From contig JAJZUW010000013.1 in the NCBI GenBank assembly GCA_021845925.1, positions 1-50,280 on the forward strand: a stretch of DNA of 50,280 nucleotides, written 5' to 3'. Each line of letters opens with the position of its first letter. Positions within the stretch are counted from its first letter, which is position 1. Of the stretch, positions 21,978-32,118 are shown in pieces. A model generated the notes under the pieces. The model was given only the letters and a program-made list of their open reading frames with translations, was not told where the DNA came from and did no database searches. A program made the translations under genes and the position numbers. This DNA comes from Pseudomonadota bacterium. GTDB lineage: Bacteria > Pseudomonadota > Gammaproteobacteria > Burkholderiales > Sulfuriferulaceae.

Positions 21978-22041
21978 GTGGTTGTTATCCTTTTTGGTGT
22001 AAAGCCATTTTAATTCAAAATGACGACATTTTTGTTAATTC

Positions 22042-22060
22042 ATAGATGATAATCATTATC
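22042..22060 (-). promoter_or_regulatory. Fur box upstream of the OprB-type porin
   Basis: The 19 bases match the Fur consensus GATAATGATAATCATTATC at 15 positions, with the last 15 identical. The inner part (ATGATAATCATTATCAT, 22046-22062) is a near-perfect palindrome. It lies 65 to 83 bases upstream of the porin ATG at 21977, where a bound repressor would block the promoter. The remaining bases to 22322 hold no gene that I can see. Confidence 0.8.
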
Positions 22061-22322
22061 ATTTAAGAAGTCAAGCCAATCCAGTCAGTCATCGCAAACA
22101 GCCACAAGTGATCACAACAATCAAATTCAACATGTTGGAAAAACCATGATGATGACATATACTCCAGAAAGGTGTGCTGCGAGGTAGTACGTAGCATGTA
22201 CTGATAGCTAAACAACATTAAAGCAACCACACATCCCATCACCCCTGTTTTGCCGCCTCCTTCCAGCAACTGAAAGCCGGCGCAGAACATAAAACAGATG
22301 AAACACTGACAATAAATACTGA

Positions 22323-23198
22323 ATGGAACTTCATGACCTGTCGCGGAGCATCACATGTCCAAGGCAGTTTCGCAGGTTGGCTGGATGGCTGCTGATTCTT
22401 GCCTGTGTGACTCTGCCGCGGACAGCTTCGGCCGCCTTGCCGCTTGAAATTGGCATCTGGCCCTACATGAGCACACAATCGCTTGTCAGCCTGTATCGCC
22501 CCCTGCAACGATACCTGACAGCCGAATATCACAGACCGGTGCTTTTCGTGACCGCCCCCAACCAGATCACTTTTGCCAGGCGCATGCTCGACAATGATTA
22601 TCTGTTTGTTCTATCGGCGCCCCACTTTGCCCGCATGGCTGAACAGGAACGTGGCTACATTCCCTTTCTAAGAGCCAGGCGTGATCTGACCAGCATCATC
22701 ATTGTCGAGCGCAACAATCCGATTACCAGTCTGCAGGGTCTGCTCGGGCAAACCATAACCTTGCCAGAAAATGTAACCGTGGTTGCCATGCAGAGCCTTG
22801 AAAAGCTCAGGGAAGCCGGCTTGCATCCAGGCAAAGATATCCGGATCAAATACGCCATGTCACACAACAGCGCGGCACTGGATGTTCTGCGCGGCAACAG
22901 TATCGCGGCAGCCACTACCACCACCATCCTGGACCAGATGCCAGACAAAAGCCGGTTCCGCATTCTGGCCGAAGCCGGACATGCCGCGCCGGTAATCATC
23001 AGCGCCAGTCCGGATGCTACGCCAGAGCAGATCAGCCGGATGAAACAACTGCTACTCGATTTCTGCAACAACGATCCGGTCGGCAAACAATTCACCGCTT
23101 CAGTGGGCTGGCGTGGTCTACGCCCCACCACACCCGAAGAACTGCGCCAGATGGATCCGCTGGTCGGCGATCTGCACCAACTGATGGACCGCCCATGA
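22323..23198 (+). CDS. PhnD-like periplasmic substrate-binding protein
   Basis: 291 residues of the phosphate/phosphite/phosphonate-binding superfamily. A signal anchor at about 20-37 (WLLILACVTLP, then TASA) precedes a two-lobed binding domain: LEIGIWPYMS, LYRPLQRYLTAE, the VTAPNQITFARRM and LFVLSAPHFARM blocks, and VERNNPITSLQGLLGQT, all as in PhnD/PtxB-type proteins. No ABC permease or ATPase is nearby. Instead its stop overlaps the start of a GGDEF-EAL receptor (ATGA), so it probably serves as a ligand sensor that signals to that protein and not as a transporter part. The ligand is unknown. Confidence 0.85.
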   Translation: MELHDLSRSITCPRQFRRLAGWLLILACVTLPRTASAALPLEIGIWPYMSTQSLVSLYRPLQRYLTAEYHRPVLFVTAPNQITFARRMLDNDYLFVLSAPHFARMAEQERGYIPFLRARRDLTSIIIVERNNPITSLQGLLGQTITLPENVTVVAMQSLEKLREAGLHPGKDIRIKYAMSHNSAALDVLRGNSIAAATTTTILDQMPDKSRFRILAEAGHAAPVIISASPDATPEQISRMKQLLLDFCNNDPVGKQFTASVGWRGLRPTTPEELRQMDPLVGDLHQLMDRP

Positions 23199-25627
23199 CA
23201 AAGCGGTTTTCTGTCTGGCATTCGCTGCGTCTGAAGCTCATCGTTGCCAGCGTCCTGATTGAAGTCATCATGCTGGGCATCATGGTTGGCAACAGCCTCC
23301 GGCTGATGGAGGAGCACGTTCTCGGACAGGCGCAAGCCCGACTCACCGAAGTCAAGACGTTGCTCAATGCCTCGCTATCGGCTGCGCTGGCCCAACGCGA
23401 CTACGGCACGATGGACAGCGTTATCCGCCAGGTGCGTCGTAAAAATGGACTGGTCTATCTGGTTGTTTACGACGATTTCGACCGGGTGGTTGCCTCTACC
23501 GGCTGGCCGGACAAAAAGCCCCTGCCGCCGCTGGACCCCGGCCTGAAAATTGCCACACGAGGAACACTTTACAACACCCAGATTCCGGTACAGATCGATG
23601 GCGTGGATTACGGTCGGGTGCGATTTGGCGTGTCAACCGAATTCCTGCGCATCGCACGAGACAACATTTTTCACCAGAGTATTCTGATTGCAGGACTGGA
23701 AATCCTGTTTTCCATTTCCTTGCTGACCATTACCGGTTTCTGGCTGACGCGCAACCTGTCCATTCTGATGCGGGCCACCGAGGGCATTGCCCATGGCAAT
23801 TACGAAACCCGGCTCAAGATCGGCGGACACGATGAAATTGCGAGCCTCGGCGAAGCATTCAACACCATGTCGACAGCAGTACGCGCCCGCATCGAGGATC
23901 TGGAAAAATCCGAAAGCCTGCAGCGCAAATATCGCCAGGAAGTTGATGAAGAACGCGCACGGCTGGCCTCCCTGCTTTCCGCGATGAACCAGGGCATTCT
24001 GTTTGTTGGCATCCAGAACAAGGTCAAGTATTACAATCCGGCATTTTTGCGCATGTGGATGATCCCGGATACGGAAAATCTGGTTGGCCGGGACGCCACC
24101 GATGTCCTGAGCCTGTCTGCCAGCGTGCTGTCGCAGCCGGACCATTTTTCGCGATATCTGCTTGATGTGACCACCACCCATCAGGTCAGCGAAAATTTCG
24201 AAATCAACATGGCCGATGGTCGGGTCATCACGCAAATCAGTTATCCGGTGCGCGATGCCGACATGCGGCTGATTGGCAGGCTGTGGGTTTATGAAGACAT
24301 TACCAAGGCGCGTCACAGTGCCGAGCAACTCATCTACCTTGCCGAGCGCGACAGCCTCACCGGGCTCTACAACCGCAGGCGTTTCCAGGATGAGCTCAGC
24401 CGGTTCATCATCGATGTCGAACGGCGAAAATCCAATGGCGCACTGCTGTTTTTCGATCTGGATGAATTCAAGTACATCAATGACACCTTCGGCCACGCAG
24501 CGGGTGATTCCATGCTGATCCGCATTGCCGGAGAAGTTGGCAAACTGGTGCGGGCCAACGAGATTTTCGGGCGTCTGGGCGGCGATGAATTCGCCATTCT
24601 GATGACGGACACCGACAGGGCGCAAGTTGAACGACTGGCAGAACGGGTTGTGCGCGCGATTGCCCAGATTCCATTCCGCTTCAATGCGCAGAACCTGCGC
24701 CTGACCACCAGTATCGGCATTGCGCTGTATCCGGAACATGCGGCCAACACCGAAGAACTCATCGGACATGCCGATGCTGCAATGTATCAGGCCAAAGCAG
24801 CTGGAAAAAATGGCTGGCGCATCTATCGGGCCGATATAGACACTTCGCAGGCCATGGTGACACGCCTGTCCTGGAATGACAGAATCAGCAACGCCCTCGA
24901 CAACAATCATCTGGTCCTGCATTTTCAGGGGGTCTATCATGCCCGCGACAAGGCGCGACTGTCGCATCTGGAAGTGCTGGTGCGCATGCTCGATCCTGCC
25001 GCACCTGGCGGAGTAATCATGCCCGGCCACTTCATTCCGTACGCCGAAAAAAGCGGCAAGATTCTGGACATCGATCGCTGGGTGCTGAAAGAAAGCATAC
25101 GTCTGCTAGCCAGTTCAGCCGACATGCCGCCACTGGCGGTCAATATTTCCGGACGCTCGTTCGACGAACCCTCATTGCCGCACTACATCAGCGAACTGTT
25201 GCAGGAATTCCATATTGATCCCTCCCGCCTGCTGATTGAACTGACCGAAACATCGGCAGTGACCGATCTGCAGGATGCGCAACGCTTCATCGAAGCCCTG
25301 CGCCGGACTGGCTGCCCAGTTTGCCTGGATGATTTTGGCACTGGTTTTTCATCGTTTGCCTACCTGAAACATCTCAATGCGGACATTCTCAAAATCGATG
25401 GTCTGTTCATCCGCGACCTGACCAACAACCATGACAACCAGATTTTTGTCCGCGCGATTGTCGATGTGGCGCGAGGACTGCGTAAAACCACCATTGCCGA
25501 GTTTGTTGAAGATGGCGAGACCCTGGCCATGCTGAACACCTTTGGTGTCGATTATGTGCAGGGTTATTACCTTGATATCCCGCGTGGCGATCACCCATCT
25601 CTTGTCGCCACCAAGCCAAAATCCTGA
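23195..25627 (+). CDS. Membrane GGDEF-EAL protein with HAMP and PAS-like domains
   Basis: 810-residue c-di-GMP enzyme. TM1 at about 13-34, a periplasmic sensor domain (35-160), TM2 at about 163-184, HAMP (185-238), a short coiled coil, a PAS-like domain (about 258-370), GGDEF (375-535) and EAL (545-800). The cyclase motif GGDEF is intact at 462-466; the inhibitory I-site position reads RANE (453-456), not RxxD. The EAL motif reads EVL, while ELTETS, DDFGTGFSSFAYL and a Glu in AEFVE remain, so phosphodiesterase activity is possible. It overlaps the PhnD-like gene by four bases, implying a sensor pair in which the periplasmic binding protein controls c-di-GMP turnover. Confidence 0.9.
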   Translation: MTKRFSVWHSLRLKLIVASVLIEVIMLGIMVGNSLRLMEEHVLGQAQARLTEVKTLLNASLSAALAQRDYGTMDSVIRQVRRKNGLVYLVVYDDFDRVVASTGWPDKKPLPPLDPGLKIATRGTLYNTQIPVQIDGVDYGRVRFGVSTEFLRIARDNIFHQSILIAGLEILFSISLLTITGFWLTRNLSILMRATEGIAHGNYETRLKIGGHDEIASLGEAFNTMSTAVRARIEDLEKSESLQRKYRQEVDEERARLASLLSAMNQGILFVGIQNKVKYYNPAFLRMWMIPDTENLVGRDATDVLSLSASVLSQPDHFSRYLLDVTTTHQVSENFEINMADGRVITQISYPVRDADMRLIGRLWVYEDITKARHSAEQLIYLAERDSLTGLYNRRRFQDELSRFIIDVERRKSNGALLFFDLDEFKYINDTFGHAAGDSMLIRIAGEVGKLVRANEIFGRLGGDEFAILMTDTDRAQVERLAERVVRAIAQIPFRFNAQNLRLTTSIGIALYPEHAANTEELIGHADAAMYQAKAAGKNGWRIYRADIDTSQAMVTRLSWNDRISNALDNNHLVLHFQGVYHARDKARLSHLEVLVRMLDPAAPGGVIMPGHFIPYAEKSGKILDIDRWVLKESIRLLASSADMPPLAVNISGRSFDEPSLPHYISELLQEFHIDPSRLLIELTETSAVTDLQDAQRFIEALRRTGCPVCLDDFGTGFSSFAYLKHLNADILKIDGLFIRDLTNNHDNQIFVRAIVDVARGLRKTTIAEFVEDGETLAMLNTFGVDYVQGYYLDIPRGDHPSLVATKPKS

Positions 25628-25719
25628 CATAAAACTGAGCTAAAGCCAACGGTTTTGCCGGCAAATCAGGTCACCAAAAGCGATTTATTTTCTTTTATGA
25701 CAATCAGTTACCGATGGGT

Positions 25720-25740
25720 GTTGCTTTTCGGCAACTTTTA
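25720..25740 (+). terminator. Probable rho-independent terminator
   Basis: GTTGC (25720-25724) pairs with GCAAC (25731-25735) over a 6-base loop and is followed by TTTTA. It lies 93 bases after the GGDEF-EAL gene. The rest of the gap to 25857 is AT-rich and presumably holds the promoter of the oxygenase operon, but I cannot pick out reliable boxes. Confidence 0.5.
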
Positions 25741-25857
25741 ATACTTTAATGCGATCTCTTTATCAATTTAGATGACGCAGCGACATAAATCAGCTAATCT
25801 GATCCGCAACTCATATGATGGCAACCAGCCGAATTTGATCACCTGTCGGAGAACCAG

Positions 25858-26547
25858 ATGGAAATCGACACTTCACTGCGCATGCACAACAAACCATTCC
25901 GTTTGCTGGATGAAGAACGCATCCGGGCAGCCATCCTGAACCAGGATCCCTATGATTACGCTTATGTCGAACAGGCCATCGATGCACGGCACAAAGACGC
26001 CGTGCTGGCCGATGCACCGGCCATTCCAGACCGTGGCAGCTATGGCCTGCCCGACCTCCGGTATGGCGAAAAATTCGGCGATGCAATCGACGACCTGCTC
26101 AGTATCCGTTTTCGGCGCCTGGTGGAAGAAAAATTCGACACCGATCTGGGCAACTGTCCACCAGTCATCGTGATGATGGGCAATACCACCGGACATTACA
26201 ACGAAGGTTATGCCCATACCGATTCAAAACACAAAATCATCACTGTCCTGCTCGGATTCACGCGTGAATGGCCCTATCAGCGCGGTCGCCTGCGCATCAT
26301 GCGCAGCTCCAACCGAGAAGATTACGCATTCGAGTATTCGCCAGAATTCGGCAGGATGATGATGTTTCGCGTCTGCGATCATTCCTGGCACGGCTTCCTG
26401 CCACAAAAAGGCCAACGCATGAGTCTGCAATTGTGCTACGTGGATTCGGACCTTTACGTTAAAAAGGAATACATGCGTCACCATGTCAGCGCATTTGCGA
26501 AATCGGTTCCGTTGCTGCGCAAAGTGATTGAATGGGCGCCAAGATAA
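25858..26547 (+). CDS. Fe(II)/2OG oxygenase, first gene of a three-gene operon
   Basis: 229-residue soluble non-heme iron oxygenase. The iron ligands are H120-x-D122 (GYAHTDSKHK) and H178 (in HSWHGF), and R187 (GQRMSL) is in place for 2-oxoglutarate. The spacing of these within a jelly-roll of about 90 residues fits the prolyl-hydroxylase-like group (PF13640 type). The N-terminal 100 residues are specific to this protein and may bind substrate. GGAG precedes the ATG. Twenty-four bases separate it from a second, only distantly similar oxygenase. Substrate unknown. Confidence 0.8.
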   Translation: MEIDTSLRMHNKPFRLLDEERIRAAILNQDPYDYAYVEQAIDARHKDAVLADAPAIPDRGSYGLPDLRYGEKFGDAIDDLLSIRFRRLVEEKFDTDLGNCPPVIVMMGNTTGHYNEGYAHTDSKHKIITVLLGFTREWPYQRGRLRIMRSSNREDYAFEYSPEFGRMMMFRVCDHSWHGFLPQKGQRMSLQLCYVDSDLYVKKEYMRHHVSAFAKSVPLLRKVIEWAPR

Positions 26548-26571
26548 TCAAAACCTATCATAGGACTACAA

Positions 26572-27258
26572 ATGGAATTTCCCGTTGTTCCTGAGGTATC
26601 GGACATTGTCCGCCACTTTGGCCATGCTCTGGTTGCCGCCAGTGTGGACGACCAGCCCTACCGGCATTGGCTGCTCAAAGACATGATACCGGTCGAGCTG
26701 GCCACGGCTGTGCTGGTTCTGCCCATTGCTCCGCCACTGATTGACGAATGCGGTGGCGTGCGGGATCTGAACGACAACAACCGCAAACGCTGCTTTTTTA
26801 CGCCAGAACTGCGCAGCCAGTTTCCGACATGCGAGGCATTCGCCCGCGCCATGCAGACCCCGGCCATCGCACGGCAGTTTGCCGAAACCTGCCAGATCGA
26901 TGTCGAAGGTAGCTACCTGCGCATGGAATACATCCAGGATACCAATGGCGCCTGGCTCAAACCGCACCATGACGTACCCGAAAAACTGTTTTCGCTGGTC
27001 CTTTACCTGTGTACCGGCCCGGAGGCCGCTCAATGGGGAACCGACATCTACGACAATCAGCTGCGCTGGGTCGGCCGCAGCTCGGCCGAATTCAACTCGG
27101 CTGTCATTTTCGTGCCGGGCGAAAACACCTGGCATGGCTTTGAACAACGCCCCATCATCGGCGTTCGCCGTCTGATGGAAATCAATTATGTCAGCCCCAC
27201 CTGGCGTGACCGTGATCAGCTGGCATTTCCGGACCAACCCATTACCTGCAGGGATTGA
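26572..27258 (+). CDS. Second Fe(II)/2OG oxygenase of the operon
   Basis: 228 residues. The iron site is visible as H132-x-D134 (KPHHDVPEKLFS) and H188 (NTWHGF), with R199 or R200 (GVRRLMEINYV) as the 2-oxoglutarate anchor. The shared WHGF turn suggests a common ancestor with the preceding oxygenase, but the rest differs clearly, so they probably act on different positions or substrates. AGGA precedes the ATG. A Rid-like protein gene begins five bases after its stop, with the binding site inside this gene's end. Confidence 0.82.
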   Translation: MEFPVVPEVSDIVRHFGHALVAASVDDQPYRHWLLKDMIPVELATAVLVLPIAPPLIDECGGVRDLNDNNRKRCFFTPELRSQFPTCEAFARAMQTPAIARQFAETCQIDVEGSYLRMEYIQDTNGAWLKPHHDVPEKLFSLVLYLCTGPEAAQWGTDIYDNQLRWVGRSSAEFNSAVIFVPGENTWHGFEQRPIIGVRRLMEINYVSPTWRDRDQLAFPDQPITCRD

Positions 27259-27263
27259 CAGCC

Positions 27264-28469
27264 ATGTTTGACACCCAGAGCCTTACCCGTAGCGAGCAAC
27301 TGATCCAGCTGCAGCAACCTGGCCTTTCCGTGCGCAGCTTTACAAGCCAGGACGGACCGGCAGAACACTACATCCTCATCGAGAGCATTCCTTCGGGCTC
27401 GTTCAGCCGGCAGATCGAATCGGTGGAACAACGATACGCCGCCACACTGAAAGAACTGGGTCTCAGCGAGGGCAGCGCCGTGTTTCGTCGCCTGTTTGTC
27501 AGCGATATTCTCAATCAGGCCGACAGCGTGCGCCACAGCAGGCTGGCACAAACCGATCCGCAATCGCCTGTTGCCATTTCCCTTGTTGAGCAAGCCCCCT
27601 TGTCCGGCAGCAAACTGGCCATGCTGGCACACCACATCGAACACGATGGCCATACCACACGCTCCGCACTGTCGGATTGCCAGACATTGCTCGAACGTCA
27701 CGGCAAAACGCATGTCTGGAACACGCAACTATGCGATCAGACCGACCGGATCCCGCCACGACCAGCCGGACAGCAAACAGAAGCCGCATTTGAGCGGCTG
27801 TCTGCCACACTGGCGCATCTGGATGGCAACCTGCTGGACCATTGCATTCGCACCTGGATTTATCTCAAGGATGTCGATATCGACTACAAGGACATGGTCG
27901 AAAGCCGCATCCGCCTGTTTGACAGACACGGCCTGACCCGCGACACCCATTACATCGCCAGCACCGGCATTGAAGGCGCCTGCAGCCATCGCGCCGATCT
28001 GATCATGATGGATGCCTATTCGATCGTCGGCCTGGAACCCCGACAAATGGAATTTCTGAACGATTTCGATCATCTTTGCGCAGCCGGCGATTACAACGTC
28101 ACCTTCGAACGCGGCACACGCATTGCCTGGCGCGACCGCAGCCATTACTACATCTCCGGTACGGCCAGCATCGATACCGGCGGCCAGGTCGTGCATCGGG
28201 GCGATGTGCTGCGTCAGCTGGATGTTGCCCTGGAAAATGTCGATGCACTGCTGCGTTCCGGCGGCGCCACACTGAACGACATGATGTACCTGACGGTTTA
28301 TCTGCGCGACCCGGCCGACTCCCCCGTCATTCGCGCCCGACTAGCAGAAAGCGTGCCGGATATCCCCGCCATCCTGGTGCATGGCCCGGTCTGCCGTCCG
28401 GAATGGCTGGTGGAAATCGAAGGAATTGCCATCAGGGCTCAACACAATCCCGAGATGCCCGTGTTTTGA
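27264..28469 (+). CDS. Three-unit Rid (YjgF/RidA) family protein, chorismatase-like
   Basis: 401 residues from the ATG at 27264 (GGGA upstream; a TTG three codons earlier is less likely). It appears to contain three Rid-like units: residues about 35-125 (VFRRLFVSD, PVAISLVEQ), 170-260 (IRTWIYLKDVD, ASTGIEG) and 290-392 (YYISGTAS, MMYLTVYLRD, VCRPEWLVEIEG). RidA proteins are homotrimers, so this chain may fold as a pseudo-trimer. The arrangement and the SGTAS and CRxxxLVEIEG blocks recall FkbO/Hyg5-type chorismatases, which have the same architecture. E384 and C377 may be functional. The partners are two oxygenases, which suggests a small-molecule pathway. The exact reaction is unknown. Confidence 0.65.
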   Translation: MFDTQSLTRSEQLIQLQQPGLSVRSFTSQDGPAEHYILIESIPSGSFSRQIESVEQRYAATLKELGLSEGSAVFRRLFVSDILNQADSVRHSRLAQTDPQSPVAISLVEQAPLSGSKLAMLAHHIEHDGHTTRSALSDCQTLLERHGKTHVWNTQLCDQTDRIPPRPAGQQTEAAFERLSATLAHLDGNLLDHCIRTWIYLKDVDIDYKDMVESRIRLFDRHGLTRDTHYIASTGIEGACSHRADLIMMDAYSIVGLEPRQMEFLNDFDHLCAAGDYNVTFERGTRIAWRDRSHYYISGTASIDTGGQVVHRGDVLRQLDVALENVDALLRSGGATLNDMMYLTVYLRDPADSPVIRARLAESVPDIPAILVHGPVCRPEWLVEIEGIAIRAQHNPEMPVF

Positions 28470-28662
28470 CCCAGGCAGAATTGAGAGTAATGAAGACGCA
28501 GCGATCAATTCTCGCCGGTTGGGCTGAAGCACCCGTTTGTTCGCAATCTTCGGAGCAGCTCAAATCCGGGCGATACACTGTGATGTCTTCAATTTTTTTA
28601 AATACGAATGAAATCCACCGCTACGTGAGCTTCATGACAGTTTTAACTGGCGGATGTAGCTG

Positions 28663-28778
28663 CCCCCCTCACGTCATTCTGCCCCCTCATCTCATTCTGC
28701 GCCCCCTCACGTCATTCTGCGCGGAACGGAGTGAAGTCGCAGAATCCAACCAGATCCCACGACCAAGTGCGAAATGAC
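28663..28778. repeat. Short tandem CCCCCTCA-TCATTCTGC repeats plus palindromic element copy 3
   Basis: Three imperfect copies of a unit of about 19 bases start near 28663, 28682 and 28702, each containing CTCA followed by TCATTCTGC. The last runs into a shortened relative (28710-28778) of the 99-bp palindromic element seen at 10382 and 10708. Apart from this and the hairpin at 28983, the gap 28470-29120 shows no gene that I can support. Confidence 0.6.
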
Positions 28779-28982
28779 AGTAGAGGATAAATTAGCGACA
28801 TAAGTCGAGCAGAAATTGCTGGGTCATTACAGCGGGACATTTGCACATCTCACGCATGACGTTGCATAGGATGGAGCAAAGGGGGATTCTGAAACCTGTT
28901 CGGATTGGCAGGGCAGTCCGGTATCGGGCTGGGGATGTGCGGCGTGTGGCGGTGGTGGGCACACAATAATCTGAAGCGAAAG

Positions 28983-29004
28983 CCCGGCAGAGCTCTCTGC
29001 CGGG
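28983..29004. terminator. Strong hairpin, probable bidirectional terminator
   Basis: CCCGGCAGAG (28983-28992) and CTCTGCCGGG (28995-29004) are perfect inverted repeats with two bases between. On the minus strand it is followed by CTTTCGCTT. It separates the oxygenase operon from the AbiE module. Confidence 0.5.
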
Positions 29005-29064
29005 TTGAAAATCCCCGTATTGCGCAATTGCCAGTGGCAACGCCATGAAAACATGGGTGATATG

Positions 29065-29100
29065 TTTCGTTTTATCTTCCATAAGTTGCATTCAACGAAA
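29065..29100. promoter_or_regulatory. Inverted repeat upstream of abiEi, candidate operator
   Basis: TTTCGTT (29065-29071) and AACGAAA (29094-29100) are exact inverted repeats ending 20 bases before the abiEi start. AbiEi antitoxins are known to repress their own promoter through inverted repeats, so this is a reasonable operator candidate. Binding is inferred. Confidence 0.45.
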
Positions 29101-29120
29101 TAACGGAACATACTTCCCCC

Positions 29121-29726
29121 ATGGCCTTCAGTACCCACAATCAGCGCGTCCTCGATCTGGCCAGCCAGAAGGGGCTGCTGCGCGCCAACGATCTGAACAC
29201 CATCGGTGCGCCTCGGGTCGTTCTGACGCGCCTGACCGCCTCGGGTCTGCTGGAAAAGGTGGGGCGTGGCCTGTACCGTCTGCCGGGTGCACAGATTTCG
29301 GAATTCGAGAGCCTTGGCACCATCGCCACAAAAGTACCTCAAGCGGTGTTCTGCCTGCTCACGGCACTGCAATTTCACGAACTGACCACGCAGCTACCGC
29401 GTCAAATCTGGATTGCCATGCCTCGGGGCAGCCACCCACCCCGTATCGACTACCCGCCAGTCAAGATGGTACAGTTCAGCGGTGATGTCTATTCGACAGG
29501 GATTGAGGAAATCGAACGCGATGGTGTCAAGCTTCGGGTGTACAGCGTAGCCAAAACCGTGGCGGACTGCTTCAAGTACCGGAACAAGATCGGGCTGGAT
29601 GTGGCGCTGGAAGCGCTGAAAGATGCTCGGGCGCACAGCAAGGCAACGGTCAACGACATCTGGCACTTCGCCAAAATATGTCGCGTGGCCAACGTGATGC
29701 GCCCCTACCTGGAGAGTGTCGGATGA
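29121..29726 (+). CDS. abiEi: AbiEi-type antitoxin / transcriptional regulator
   Basis: 201 residues. An N-terminal winged-helix domain (about 5-55, with VLTRLTASGLLEKVGRGLYRL) precedes the AbiEi C-terminal domain (FCLLTALQFHELTTQLP, then VYSVAKTVADCFKYRNKIGLDVALEAL). The RGLYRLP turn and the AKTVADCFKYR helix are strong family marks. It should repress its own promoter and counteract AbiEii in a type IV toxin-antitoxin system that gives abortive-infection phage resistance in other bacteria. Its stop overlaps the start of the toxin gene (ATGA). Flanking tRNA-Ser and an integrase remnant mark it as acquired. Confidence 0.92.
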   Translation: MAFSTHNQRVLDLASQKGLLRANDLNTIGAPRVVLTRLTASGLLEKVGRGLYRLPGAQISEFESLGTIATKVPQAVFCLLTALQFHELTTQLPRQIWIAMPRGSHPPRIDYPPVKMVQFSGDVYSTGIEEIERDGVKLRVYSVAKTVADCFKYRNKIGLDVALEALKDARAHSKATVNDIWHFAKICRVANVMRPYLESVG

Positions 29727-30586
29727 GCGCTGGCACCTCAAATATCGCGGCATCCGTCCGTGCGCGCCTGCTCAACGTCGCCAAAACGCAAGGTGTTGAT
29801 TTCAATCAAGTGCTGGTACGCTTCGCTTTGGAGCGCATCCTCTATCGGCTGACCCAGTCGCCGCACGCGGATCACTTTCTGCTCAAAGGCGCGCTGCTGT
29901 TCACGCTCTGGTACGATATGCCACACCGGGCCACACGCGATGCCGACCTCCTGGGCTTCGGTGCCAGCGATCTGGAGTCAGTGGCCCAAGTATTCCGGGA
30001 CATCGCAGCCGTGCCAGTCGACGACGGCATCATGTTCGACCCTGCCTCTGTCTTAGTCGAAGAGATCCGCAAGGAAGCTGGCTACGGCGGCGTTCGTGTC
30101 GTCATTGCGGCCGAATTATCCAGAGCACGGTGCAAAACCCAAATCGACGTCGGTTTCGGCGACGCCGTCACCCCAGCGCCTGTTGATTCGGTCTATCCAG
30201 TACTGCTGGAGGACATGCCCGCACCACGACTGCGAACCTATCCAACGTACACCGTCATCGCTGAAAAACTCCACGCCATTGCTTTGCTGGGCATGACCAA
30301 CAGCCGCTTGAAGGACTACTTCGATCTAGCGGTGCTGTTGGAACGAGAAACTCTGGACACCGATCTGCTGGCACGGGCGATCAAGGCCACGTTTGAAAGA
30401 CGGGGCATGGCAGTTCCTGAAGCGCTGCCAGTCGGCCTGACGAACGAGTTTGCACACGATGCATCACGGCAGGCACTGTGGCTAGCGTTTCTCAAGAAGA
30501 ACGAACTTCCACCAGAACCCTTGCCCGACATCGTTGACCGCTTGAACGTGGCATTGGCACCTGCGTTCAACATCGTGGTTCATTAA
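29723..30586 (+). CDS. abiEii: AbiEii-type nucleotidyltransferase toxin
   Basis: 287 residues from the ATG at 29723 that overlaps the antitoxin stop; an upstream start at 29678 is in frame but less likely. Nucleotidyltransferase motifs are present: KGALLFTLWY, RATRDADLLG (two Asp that would bind metal), KTQIDVGFGD and the later YTVIAEKLHAI with KDYFDL. AbiEii toxins transfer nucleotides to tRNA or other acceptors and halt growth. Length and motif order match the family. The order antitoxin then toxin is standard for AbiE. Likely active as no lesion is visible. Confidence 0.92.
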   Translation: MSAGTSNIAASVRARLLNVAKTQGVDFNQVLVRFALERILYRLTQSPHADHFLLKGALLFTLWYDMPHRATRDADLLGFGASDLESVAQVFRDIAAVPVDDGIMFDPASVLVEEIRKEAGYGGVRVVIAAELSRARCKTQIDVGFGDAVTPAPVDSVYPVLLEDMPAPRLRTYPTYTVIAEKLHAIALLGMTNSRLKDYFDLAVLLERETLDTDLLARAIKATFERRGMAVPEALPVGLTNEFAHDASRQALWLAFLKKNELPPEPLPDIVDRLNVALAPAFNIVVH

Positions 30587-30676
30587 CAGGGTGTTGAAAG
30601 AAAACTGCTTGAAGAATGGTTGACGCGACAACTATCCTAAAAAACGCCGCATGCTGCAAACTTCAAATTTTCGGGT

Positions 30677-30853
30677 ACTGACTCGCCGTTTTTTGACGGG
30701 GGGATTACCGCTCAACAAATGGGACATTCGGATACCACTATGATTTTCCGTGTATACGGTCGCTGGATACCCAACGCAGCTTCAAATGCGGGCGGAAAAG
30801 CGGTGGATATGTTCGCGAACAATGTTGCCGAAAAGCTGCCAAACACACGCTAA
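30677..30853 (+). pseudogene. C-terminal remnant of a tyrosine integrase
   Basis: In one frame ending at TAA 30851-30853 the sequence reads ITAQQMGHSDTTMIFRVYGRW and onward. MGHSDTTMIFRVYGRWIP carries the last catalytic His and Tyr region of phage-type integrases. The frame before it lacks the rest of the domain, and the gene body is gone. It lies between the AbiE operon and tRNA-Ser(GGA), facing the tRNA, so it is the decayed integrase of the element that brought in AbiE. The other bases from 30587 show nothing else. Confidence 0.75.
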
Positions 30854-30911
30854 TCAGCGCCAATTTTTTGGCATTGTCGTAACCTGATTATCAATAAAAT
30901 CATGAAGTTAC

Positions 30912-31002
30912 TGGCGGAGAGAGGGGGATTCGAACCCCCGTCAGGATATTATCCTGAACACGCTTTCCAGGCGTGCGACTTAAACCACTCATCCATCTCT
31001 CC
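30912..31002 (-). tRNA. tRNA-Ser (GGA anticodon)
   Basis: The minus strand folds as a class II tRNA: acceptor GGAGAGA paired with TCTCTCC, a long variable arm (GTTCAGGATAATATCCTGAC region), a T arm with GGTTCGAATCC, and an encoded CCA end. The anticodon loop reads CTGGAAA with GGA, decoding UCC and UCU serine codons. It is complete; its 3' end faces the integrase remnant, so it probably served as an integration site. Confidence 0.93.
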
Positions 31003-31248
31003 GGATGGTTGATGCAATCCATTATCGAAATTGCGTCAATTTTTGACACTTTTACAGGCCCCAGGCAGAGCAGCAATGCTGCCCTGGTTTGCCATGAACA
31101 GCAGGCTGATCACAGCCGGTGATGACCGGTAAAGAGCCGGTGAGAATACCTGATCAACGCGATTCTGGCAAGGTATTTCATTCCAAACCCTGTCATGATT
31201 GCGTAAAAATGCTATCATTGCGCGGATCAACCTTTGCCGCATGACGAC

Positions 31249-32118
31249 ATGTCTCACGCCGATACATCGCTGGTCGAACAGCTTTCCACCAACAGCCTGC
31301 CCTACATCGACCCGCTGGCAAGGCTTGACTGGTCTGCGCTCGACATGGGCAAGCCATGGCTGCCGGAAGGCGCGATATCGCTTGCCGGATTGCCGGAATT
31401 CGCCAATCTGCCGGAAGCCGTCCGCACGCGCCTGTCCCAGTTTGAGTTCACTGGTTTCATTCATGCAGGCATCTGGCTCGAAGGCATTTTCATCGAGCGT
31501 TTGTCGCGCAATCAGCGCAACACGATCTCCTCCCAAGAACTGGCGTATTACCTGCATGAAATTCGCGAGGAAGCCGGTCACAGCCTGATGTTCCTGAAAC
31601 TGATGGAAACCAGTGGCATTCATTTGCCGGGTGCGTGGCGTAACCGTCCGGCGGTGACGGATTTTCTGGGTCGGCATACGCCGCTGCACAGCACCCTGTT
31701 CTGGCTGGCGGTAACCATTGGTGAAGAAATTCCAGACCGGCTCAACCGTTATATTCGTACACATGGTGGCAACAGCATCGATGGCGTCATCCATCAGATG
31801 TGCACGCTGCACATCATTGACGAAGCCCGGCATATCGCCCATGCGCGTGGCGCGCTCGAAGCCAGCCTGCGGAACATTCATCCGCTGAAAAGATGGTTGC
31901 TGACGCCTGTGCTTGATCTGATGATCCGGCAGTTCACGCGGACGTTCTACCTGCCATCAGCCGATGTCTACGAGATGGCCGGACTGGCGCCGGGCAAAAC
32001 CTGGCAGGATCTGGCCAGACGCAATCCGGCGCGGCTGGAATTCATCCACAAGTGTCTCAATCCCACGCTGAACACCCTGCGCGAGCACGGATTCGCTGTC
32101 GCGAATCCCAAGCTCTGA
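31249..32118 (+). CDS. AurF-like diiron oxygenase
   Basis: 289 residues from the ATG at 31249; a TTG five codons earlier is possible. It is an all-helical ferritin-like oxygenase (PF11583 type). The diiron ligands can be placed at E78 (IWLEGIF), E108-x-x-H111 (REEAGHS), E159 or E160 (TIGEEIP), H183 or H188, and E192-x-x-H195 (DEARHIA). AurF oxidises aryl amines to nitro groups, but relatives have other substrates, so only diiron oxygenase is safe. It is monocistronic between tRNA-Ser and the PII gene, convergent with the latter. It adds to the unusual density of non-heme iron oxygenases in this stretch. Confidence 0.85.
   Translation: MSHADTSLVEQLSTNSLPYIDPLARLDWSALDMGKPWLPEGAISLAGLPEFANLPEAVRTRLSQFEFTGFIHAGIWLEGIFIERLSRNQRNTISSQELAYYLHEIREEAGHSLMFLKLMETSGIHLPGAWRNRPAVTDFLGRHTPLHSTLFWLAVTIGEEIPDRLNRYIRTHGGNSIDGVIHQMCTLHIIDEARHIAHARGALEASLRNIHPLKRWLLTPVLDLMIRQFTRTFYLPSADVYEMAGLAPGKTWQDLARRNPARLEFIHKCLNPTLNTLREHGFAVANPKL

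Follow-up and report, generated by a model that had tools for sequence, protein, structure and literature searches.

A three-gene operon on contig JAJZUW010000013.1 (assembly GCA_021845925.1) encodes two Fe(II)/2-oxoglutarate (2OG) oxygenases, here OG1 and OG2, and a third protein, here Rid (P0003). The operon lies in the stretch of 50,280 nucleotides that was analysed, called the window below, and we take the host genus to be Sulfuriferula, a betaproteobacterium. In related genomes the trio travels with ubiT, ubiU and ubiV, the genes of O2-independent ubiquinone (UQ) synthesis, and Rid, judged by its predicted structure and aligned site residues, represents a new deep clade within the chorismatase fold, its site being Hyg5-like. 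This suggests a low-oxygen job for the trio. An earlier note, made from the DNA alone, had proposed the trio as an undescribed system, and this agrees with the literature searched: no published description was recognised among the matches listed, most subscription papers and preprints being outside the coverage, and the parts of the ubiTUV literature consulted make no mention of the trio.

Association with the ubiTUV genes

An OG1 alignment scan of one genome per species (84,980 species) returned 99 relatives, and the locus counts given here refer to 80 of these. At least one of ubiT, ubiU and ubiV was found within 10 kb in 21 of the 80 loci, four of the 21 from Sulfuriferula, which makes these genes the commonest scored neighbour of the trio; the U32 and SCP2 proteins concerned were called UbiU/V/T by similarity and arrangement. 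There are at least four layouts, some of them single directons and others spread across a short divergent gap. For example, ubiT-ubiU-ubiV-Rid-OG1-OG2 was seen in L101 and L112, and Rid-OG1-OG2-ubiT-ubiU-ubiV in L117, L120 and L121. In L080, L096, L100 and L113, ubiT-ubiU-ubiV-Rid is divergent from OG1-OG2, while in L124 ubiT-ubiU-ubiV is divergent from Rid-OG1-OG2. Seven of the 80 loci are Sulfuriferula also counted as genomes (by a sequence check) and four locus pairs come from the same isolate by title, so the per-locus counts are not independent; 75 of the 80 titles denote metagenome-assembled genomes.

The co-occurrence extends beyond the immediate neighbourhood. Among 50 further OG1-bearing genomes (non-Sulfuriferula with neither ubiU nor ubiV at the locus; 52 were eligible, and L132 and L134 were excluded), 37 had ubiV elsewhere in the genome. 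In a sample of 249 genomes of the Acetobacteraceae, the family of the Rhodopila genome G528, ubiV was present in 24 of the 28 genomes with OG1 versus 13 of the 221 without it (Fisher p 3.5e-20, not corrected for kinship, with the OG1 and ubiV searches taken as the same draw). A completeness filter was set for this sample, for that of the family of genome G210 and for a phylum sample; the Acetobacteraceae completeness values are not shown. In the family of G210, all nine genomes with an ortholog-like OG1 had ubiV, but so did 48 of the 52 overall, and the comparison is uninformative.

Sulfuriferula was represented by 18 genomes, the window's own included (G labels denote genomes and L labels loci); the genus name comes from G008, a member of the window's genus whose contig C49 has the same sequence as NZ_BGOW01000049.1 of Sulfuriferula multivorans TTN. 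A search for the third gene was positive in 10 of the 18, again counting the window's (E at most 1.1e-59), and the order OG1-OG2-Rid is the same in all nine others, which is more than chance; the draft contigs of G003 and G010 carry OG2 or the third gene in incomplete or broken form. Of the 10 genomes with the third gene, nine have a UbiU-UbiV pair; the eight that lack the gene have no such pair. The pair is in fragments in G003, the exception, G010, is a genome 64% complete, and G001, which has no third gene, encodes a lone UbiU-sized protein; in G003, G007, G008 and G015 the pair was called from the size and adjacency of U32 hits alone. In three Sulfuriferula islands (L030, L032 and L033) the trio lies between NrdD-NrdG-PdxS and UbiU-UbiV-LplA/DUF116 genes, and an SCP2 protein (UbiT) comes last. 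A lipoate-ligase/DUF116 fusion stands between ubiV and ubiT in Sulfuriferula (L032:8880-10442 and L141:10605-12227, with Pfam run on the L032 copy).

The trio is also conserved as a unit outside this genus: OG2 was present in 73 and Rid in 58 of the 80 OG1 loci, some of which are interrupted by contig ends. The earlier note would have abandoned its proposal had the three genes rarely been together, which is not what these counts or the Sulfuriferula gene order indicate.

The third protein

Rid (27264..28469, + strand) has 401 residues from the ATG taken as its start; a longer TTG frame would begin at 27255. Its AlphaFold2 model (pLDDT 92.6, pTM 0.92) contains three ββαβαββ units, at residues 21-125, 140-255 and 284-392. 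The earlier note had tentatively read three Rid-like units in this chain and had named structure prediction as a possible refutation; the units are there in the modelled fold, while a profile-profile (HH) comparison of the three found no repeat signal, so that the description rests on fold and not on sequence. When the model was searched with Foldseek, FkbO and Hyg5 headed the ranking, with matches that span the entire chain (E 4e-20 to 9e-18), the best match being 4bps (E 4e-20, TM 0.72 by target), with 5ag3/5a3k also found; RidA-type folds ranked next, at E 3e-8 and weaker over about 130-140 columns. The chorismatase features that the note had mentioned are therefore borne out by the fold and by the site residues described below, and where it suggested a one-chain counterpart of the RidA trimer, a new clade of the chorismatase fold is the better description.

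With residue roles transferred from the Nat-hyg5 numbering reported in PMC7170507 and Hyg5 numbers set by the alignment, G235, G299, C377 and E384 of Rid correspond to G173, G240, C327 and the catalytic E334 of Hyg5, and R378 of Rid likewise matches. All 11 positions compared are as in four annotated FkbO/Hyg5 family proteins, and none of them is missing from more than one of 47 Rid rows; all 47 have G235 and G299, and 46 have C377 and E384, the lone exception being a row (L109) interrupted by a run of N. These four residues are also found in all 19 rows of the Rid clade in a 30-row tree. This clade, which includes two Bacteroidales relatives and one deltaproteobacterial relative, is separated with support 100/100 from the Hyg5 and XanB2 types and from two Bacteroidota proteins that are more distant, with the caveat that long branches meet at the split and that the tree program warns of them. 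The substrate may be chorismate or a close relative.

Rid nevertheless differs from the known chorismatases. Compared with FkbO and Hyg5 (CH-I and CH-II), it is only 17-19% identical in the fold alignment and about 60 residues longer, it forms its separate clade on a long branch, it is paired with 2OG oxygenases, and it falls under the cut-offs of the FkbO/Hyg5 model TIGR04444 (64.9 bits, cut-off 325) and of PF21168 (14.4 bits, cut-off 27). The XanB2 type (CH-III), which is reported to be linked to UQ in Xanthomonas (PMC5069965), has the superfamily and most site residues in common with Rid. However, five XanB2-like proteins of relatives (L036-L038, L013 and L016, labelled by similarity) have Ala at Rid position 235 (Hyg5 G173), where Rid has Gly, and two of the five also differ at position 348; with this Gly and its separate clade, Rid falls outside the XanB2 type. 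A scan of viral contigs with P0003, of a kind that detects close relatives only, found none.

The two oxygenases

OG1 (25858..26547, + strand, 229 residues) is a prolyl-4-hydroxylase-like Fe(II)/2OG oxygenase, as indicated by its reading frame, Pfam, alignment and model, and OG2 (26572..27258, + strand, 228 residues) is a second, distinct one, as indicated by its reading frame, alignment and a sequence match to 9ei6. Both keep the H-x-D, H and Arg set that the earlier note had ascribed to them and that marks the 2OG oxygenases: H120-x-D122...H178 with the 2OG-binding R187 is invariant in 51 of 51 aligned OG1 rows, and H132-x-D134...H188 with R199/R200 in 46 of 46 OG2 rows. OG1 scores above the Pfam 2OG-FeII_Oxy_3 cut-off (31.9 bits versus 27) and OG2 below it (21.6 bits); no NCBIfam model matched either protein at E 1. 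OG1 from the Acidiphilium plasmid pACMV3 and OG2 from L027 are about 22% identical (E 6e-6).

The predicted model of OG1 (pLDDT 87.7) has the double-stranded beta-helix fold, its closest solved structures being PasI (9ei6/9ei7) and PolD (9blq), at E 7e-13 to 6e-12 and TM 0.64-0.76, followed by PHD2; for OG2 the only such match was a weak one by sequence to PasI (9ei6, E 3e-4). Identity to PasI and PolD is only 17-20%. PolD acts in a nucleoside antibiotic pathway, and the PDB title describes PasI as bound to an octosyl acid phosphate. A literature search on the structure codes 9BLQ, 9EI6 and 9EI7 found no relevant paper, and no nucleoside pathway gene was noticed among the partly annotated neighbours of the trio.

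A distant OG1 paralogue was seen at G000:C13:127759-128367 (L142) and in L144, about 1 kb from a 638-residue protein; the copy that was scanned matched no Pfam family at E 0.01. The pairing recurs in G429, a genome of another family, and may be another undescribed oxygenase system.

FNR boxes upstream of the trio

Sequences upstream of the first trio gene were scored against the FNR motif, which we take to be TTGATNNNNATCAA, in 78 of the 80 loci, the other two having too little upstream sequence. The best match was perfect in 32 of the 78 and had at least 9 of 10 bases in 54, a score that shuffled sequences reach in about 1%. Within a 200-base window, a box of at least 9 of 10 was found in 51 of 77 loci, while of 189 other gene starts from these loci 16 had one. 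Of the 51 sites, 33 are centred 60-90 bases 5' of the start codon. Such boxes are also present in 37 of the 56 loci without ubiT/U/V; a promoter shared with ubiTUV is therefore not their sole cause. For comparison, a candidate FNR site has been reported for 1362 of 1566 ubiTUV triplets (87%; PMC11707229). The trio of S. multivorans (L058) sits behind a perfect box centred about 75 bases 5' of OG1. According to one report (PMC12285272), S. multivorans is the only described Sulfuriferula species that grows heterotrophically and anaerobically with nitrate.

Distribution

The named loci are mostly from Acetobacteraceae and other alphaproteobacteria; many are titled simply Proteobacteria, and beta- and gammaproteobacterial titles also occur. 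Mis-binning is possible for four loci, two under the label Planctomycetaceae, one under Acidiferrales and one under Omnitrophota; none of these four genomes showed ubiV. In an even sample of the phylum, the OG1 family was rare, with five of 397 genomes positive and two of them, including the window's own, at ortholog-like scores. Plasmids of Acidiphilium and Acidithiobacillus carry the trio family as well. In the case of pACMV3, an intact Rid gene follows ubiT-ubiU-ubiV, and OG1 and OG2, about 3.5 kb away, have a broken second Rid copy beside them (L021:14157-15181). The UbiT/U/V proteins of the Acidithiobacillus plasmid are 95-97% identical to those of the Acidiphilium plasmid, and it could be a culture contamination.

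Homologues of Rid that are 33-36% identical were seen in Bacteroidales (L022, L023 and L025), in clusters with porins, an imelysin and a di-heme oxidoreductase, to which L022 and L023 add a lipoprotein-like protein, the L022 copy of which has a CxxCH motif, and L023 and L025 a CcsBA-like gene; the homologue in L023 is split into two frames. Remoter homologues in Parabacteroides and Aureibacter (L026:9788-10882 and L149:2215-3357) are preceded by genes for an IclR regulator and for a YncE-like protein or c-type cytochrome.

A possible role and its rivals

The association of the genes is observed directly; the chemistry proposed here is what we infer. Prephenate, like UQ, leads back to chorismate, being a product of it. 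UQ synthesis begins from 4-hydroxybenzoate (PMC10470549), and prephenate is the reported hydroxyl donor of UbiUV, the chemistry of this step being described as still open (PMC11574389). A chorismate-cleaving enzyme in a ubiTUV directon would, given this UQ precursor and prephenate chemistry, most likely supply or adjust an aromatic precursor. Our preferred reading, held tentatively and at somewhat less than even confidence, is that the trio is a low-oxygen auxiliary cassette working alongside the O2-independent ubiquinone pathway. Hyg5 converts chorismate to pyruvate and 3-hydroxybenzoate by acid catalysis (PMC7170507), which implies a route without O2. By analogy, Rid would act on chorismate or on a close C10 compound (prephenate and isochorismate are examples) and split it, with no need for O2, into pyruvate and a hydroxybenzoate-type ring; this ring would feed or support quinone synthesis at low oxygen, and OG1 and OG2 would hydroxylate it or a later intermediate using 2OG and residual microoxic O2. 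A more elaborate version, which we regard as rather unlikely, is an undescribed low-oxygen quinone arm: a new chorismatase class would provide the UbiUV route with the aromatic ring or with a hydroxyl donor derived from chorismate, and the two oxygenases would take over or extend hydroxylation at trace O2, maybe giving a modified quinone.

Several observations weigh against the auxiliary cassette. 2OG oxygenases need O2 and fit a strictly anaerobic role poorly; since they must wait for O2, we place the cassette in the microoxic range. The trio in the window is on a different contig from the UbiU/V/T island of its genome (C13), where no trio was found in the 36 kb fetched. The upstream sequence of the window's operon has a best FNR match of 8 of 10 in 400 bases, a value also reached by about 11% of shuffled versions of the related loci, so FNR regulation is indicated for relatives and not for this operon; six other Sulfuriferula loci were scored, and apart from S. 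multivorans (10) they reached only 7 or 8 (L055, L067, L072, L095 and L098). The trio and the pathway also occur apart: 13 of the 50 further OG1 genomes showed no ubiV, and the trio is absent from 39 of the 48 ubiV-bearing genomes in the family of G210 and from 13 of the 37 in the Acetobacteraceae sample. Thus the trio shares neighbourhoods, co-occurrence and FNR boxes with UbiT-UbiU-UbiV, but many genomes with ubiV do without it, and its oxygenases are O2-dependent enzyme types. Finally, the Rid relatives of Bacteroidales lie beside cytochrome-c genes, and no OG1 or OG2 homologue was seen in the loci examined. To our knowledge, Bacteroidales are anaerobes without UQ. This context suggests that the reaction of Rid itself is probably independent of O2, and its respiratory role may be a wider one.

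The known genes of hydroxybenzoate supply and ring hydroxylation also count against the simplest forms of this reading. UbiC is present in 17 of the 18 Sulfuriferula genomes, and Rid is therefore not the sole hydroxybenzoate source in this genus. Among 56 genomes with ubiV (34 of the 37 further OG1 genomes, and nine trio-bearing and 13 trio-less Acetobacteraceae), UbiC was found in five of the 43 with the trio versus none of the 13 without it. As all 13 of the latter lack both, the trio is no general UbiC substitute, and UbiC replacement as the unifying function was rejected on these two counts. Replacement of UbiI/H/F was rejected as well, given that Sulfuriferula genomes with the trio retain the aerobic ring hydroxylases: two TIGR01988 proteins scored over the cut-off in eight of the 10 genomes with the trio and in seven of the eight without it, and of the remaining trio-bearing genomes, G003 has one such protein and a fragment and G015 a fragment. 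In alphaproteobacteria without UbiC, the trio could still be part of the unexplained hydroxybenzoate supply, which for Hyphomicrobium denitrificans is stated to be open (PMC12423496).

Another possibility, which we consider less probable than not by a clear measure, is that the trio is a passenger of a general anaerobic or microoxic toolbox, with some other role at low oxygen (it might make a specialised metabolite, or a modification that the anaerobic ribonucleotide reductase or PLP synthesis requires), and comes near ubiTUV only through FNR control and co-mobility. Other anaerobic genes do neighbour the trio, and this too counts against a dedicated quinone role: NrdD was scored in 11, NrdG in 10, PdxS in five and PdxT in five of the 80 loci, NrdD-NrdG-OG1-OG2 forms one directon in L085, L087 and L090, and the three Sulfuriferula islands described above combine NrdDG, PdxS or PdxST, UbiUV/T and the trio. 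The related gene sets on Acidiphilium and Acidithiobacillus plasmids and the different context of the Bacteroidales homologues point the same way. However, ubiT/U/V remain the most frequent scored neighbour, Rid joins a ubiTUV directon apart from the oxygenases (in the four divergent loci L080, L096, L100 and L113, and on pACMV3), and its chorismatase fold points to the chorismate branch, the source of UQ and of the reported prephenate donor.

The earlier note had suggested a small-molecule pathway. In a stand-alone pathway of this kind, the Hyg5-type product of Rid (3-hydroxybenzoate or a related acid) would be hydroxylated by OG1 and OG2 and exported. The 11 shared Hyg5-type residues and the resemblance of OG1 to PasI and PolD and of OG2 to PasI would suit such a pathway, but it misses the association with the O2-independent ubiquinone genes and the FNR boxes, and we consider it improbable. 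Beyond the anaerobic set and antisense shadow frames, no gene cluster was found in more than six of the 80 neighbourhoods, a weak point as an argument given that most of the remaining neighbours are unannotated; some apparently recurrent neighbours (including clusters c3 and c9) were disregarded as they look like antisense shadow frames of the trio. In contrast, two FkbO/Hyg5 family genes on Streptomyces plasmids are directly followed by a gene for an AMP-binding protein.

It is less probable still that the oxygenases are an oxygen-response switch, that is, PHD2-like protein hydroxylases that FNR would induce and that would act once oxygen returns, while Rid would remove a reactive by-product. 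PHD2 follows PasI and PolD among the fold matches of OG1, and the FNR boxes would be in keeping with such a switch, but the best-ranked structures belong to small-molecule hydroxylases, OG1 and OG2 are too dissimilar for a simple duplicated sensor, and the site residues of Rid are of the chorismatase and not the RidA type. Least probable of all, and rejected as the main explanation, is that Rid is an ordinary imine/enamine deaminase of the described three-domain, single-chain form (3x-RidA; PMC4433059), as might be read from its Pfam Ribonuc_L-PSP score (PF01042, 64.2 bits, cut-off 27.3), since its whole-chain fold match and site residues are those of chorismatases, RidA folds match far more weakly, and the NCBIfam Rid models fail (RutC 36.6 of 169 bits, TIGR00004 32.8 of 106). 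The carboxylate-binding Arg of RidA, which we take to be R105, is by eye not kept in Rid, whereas C377, R378 and E384 match Hyg5.

Operon layout and flanking genes

The spacing that the earlier note gave for the trio, with gaps of 24 bases (OG1-OG2) and 5 bases (OG2-Rid), is confirmed by the reading frames, and ribosome-site-like motifs precede each gene: GGAG 6 bases 5' of the OG1 ATG, AGGA 6 bases 5' of OG2 and AGGG 10 bases 5' of the Rid start. The presumed promoter region is the intergenic stretch 5' of OG1 (25628..25857, + strand). No sigma-70-like promoter was found in 25500-28900, where terminator-like sites numbered four versus 3.0 expected. An Rfam scan of 22000-32000 returned nothing but one tRNA gene, at 30915-31002 (- strand). 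Directly 5' of the trio (22323-25627, + strand), the gene for a phosphonate-binding-type periplasmic protein overlaps by 4 bases that for a HAMP-PAS-GGDEF-EAL protein, likely a ligand-sensing c-di-GMP pair. Just 3' of the trio (29121-30586, + strand) is a pair encoding an AbiEi-type antitoxin and an AbiEii-type nucleotidyltransferase toxin.

Implications

Rid adds a deep new clade to the chorismatase fold, and one that reaches Bacteroidales too. Should the trio work with UbiTUV, partners of anaerobic ubiquinone synthesis would have been overlooked, and the paradox of O2-requiring oxygenases behind FNR boxes, beside the genes of an O2-free pathway, would become testable. It would also give a concrete candidate enzyme for the hydroxybenzoate supply of alphaproteobacteria without UbiC.

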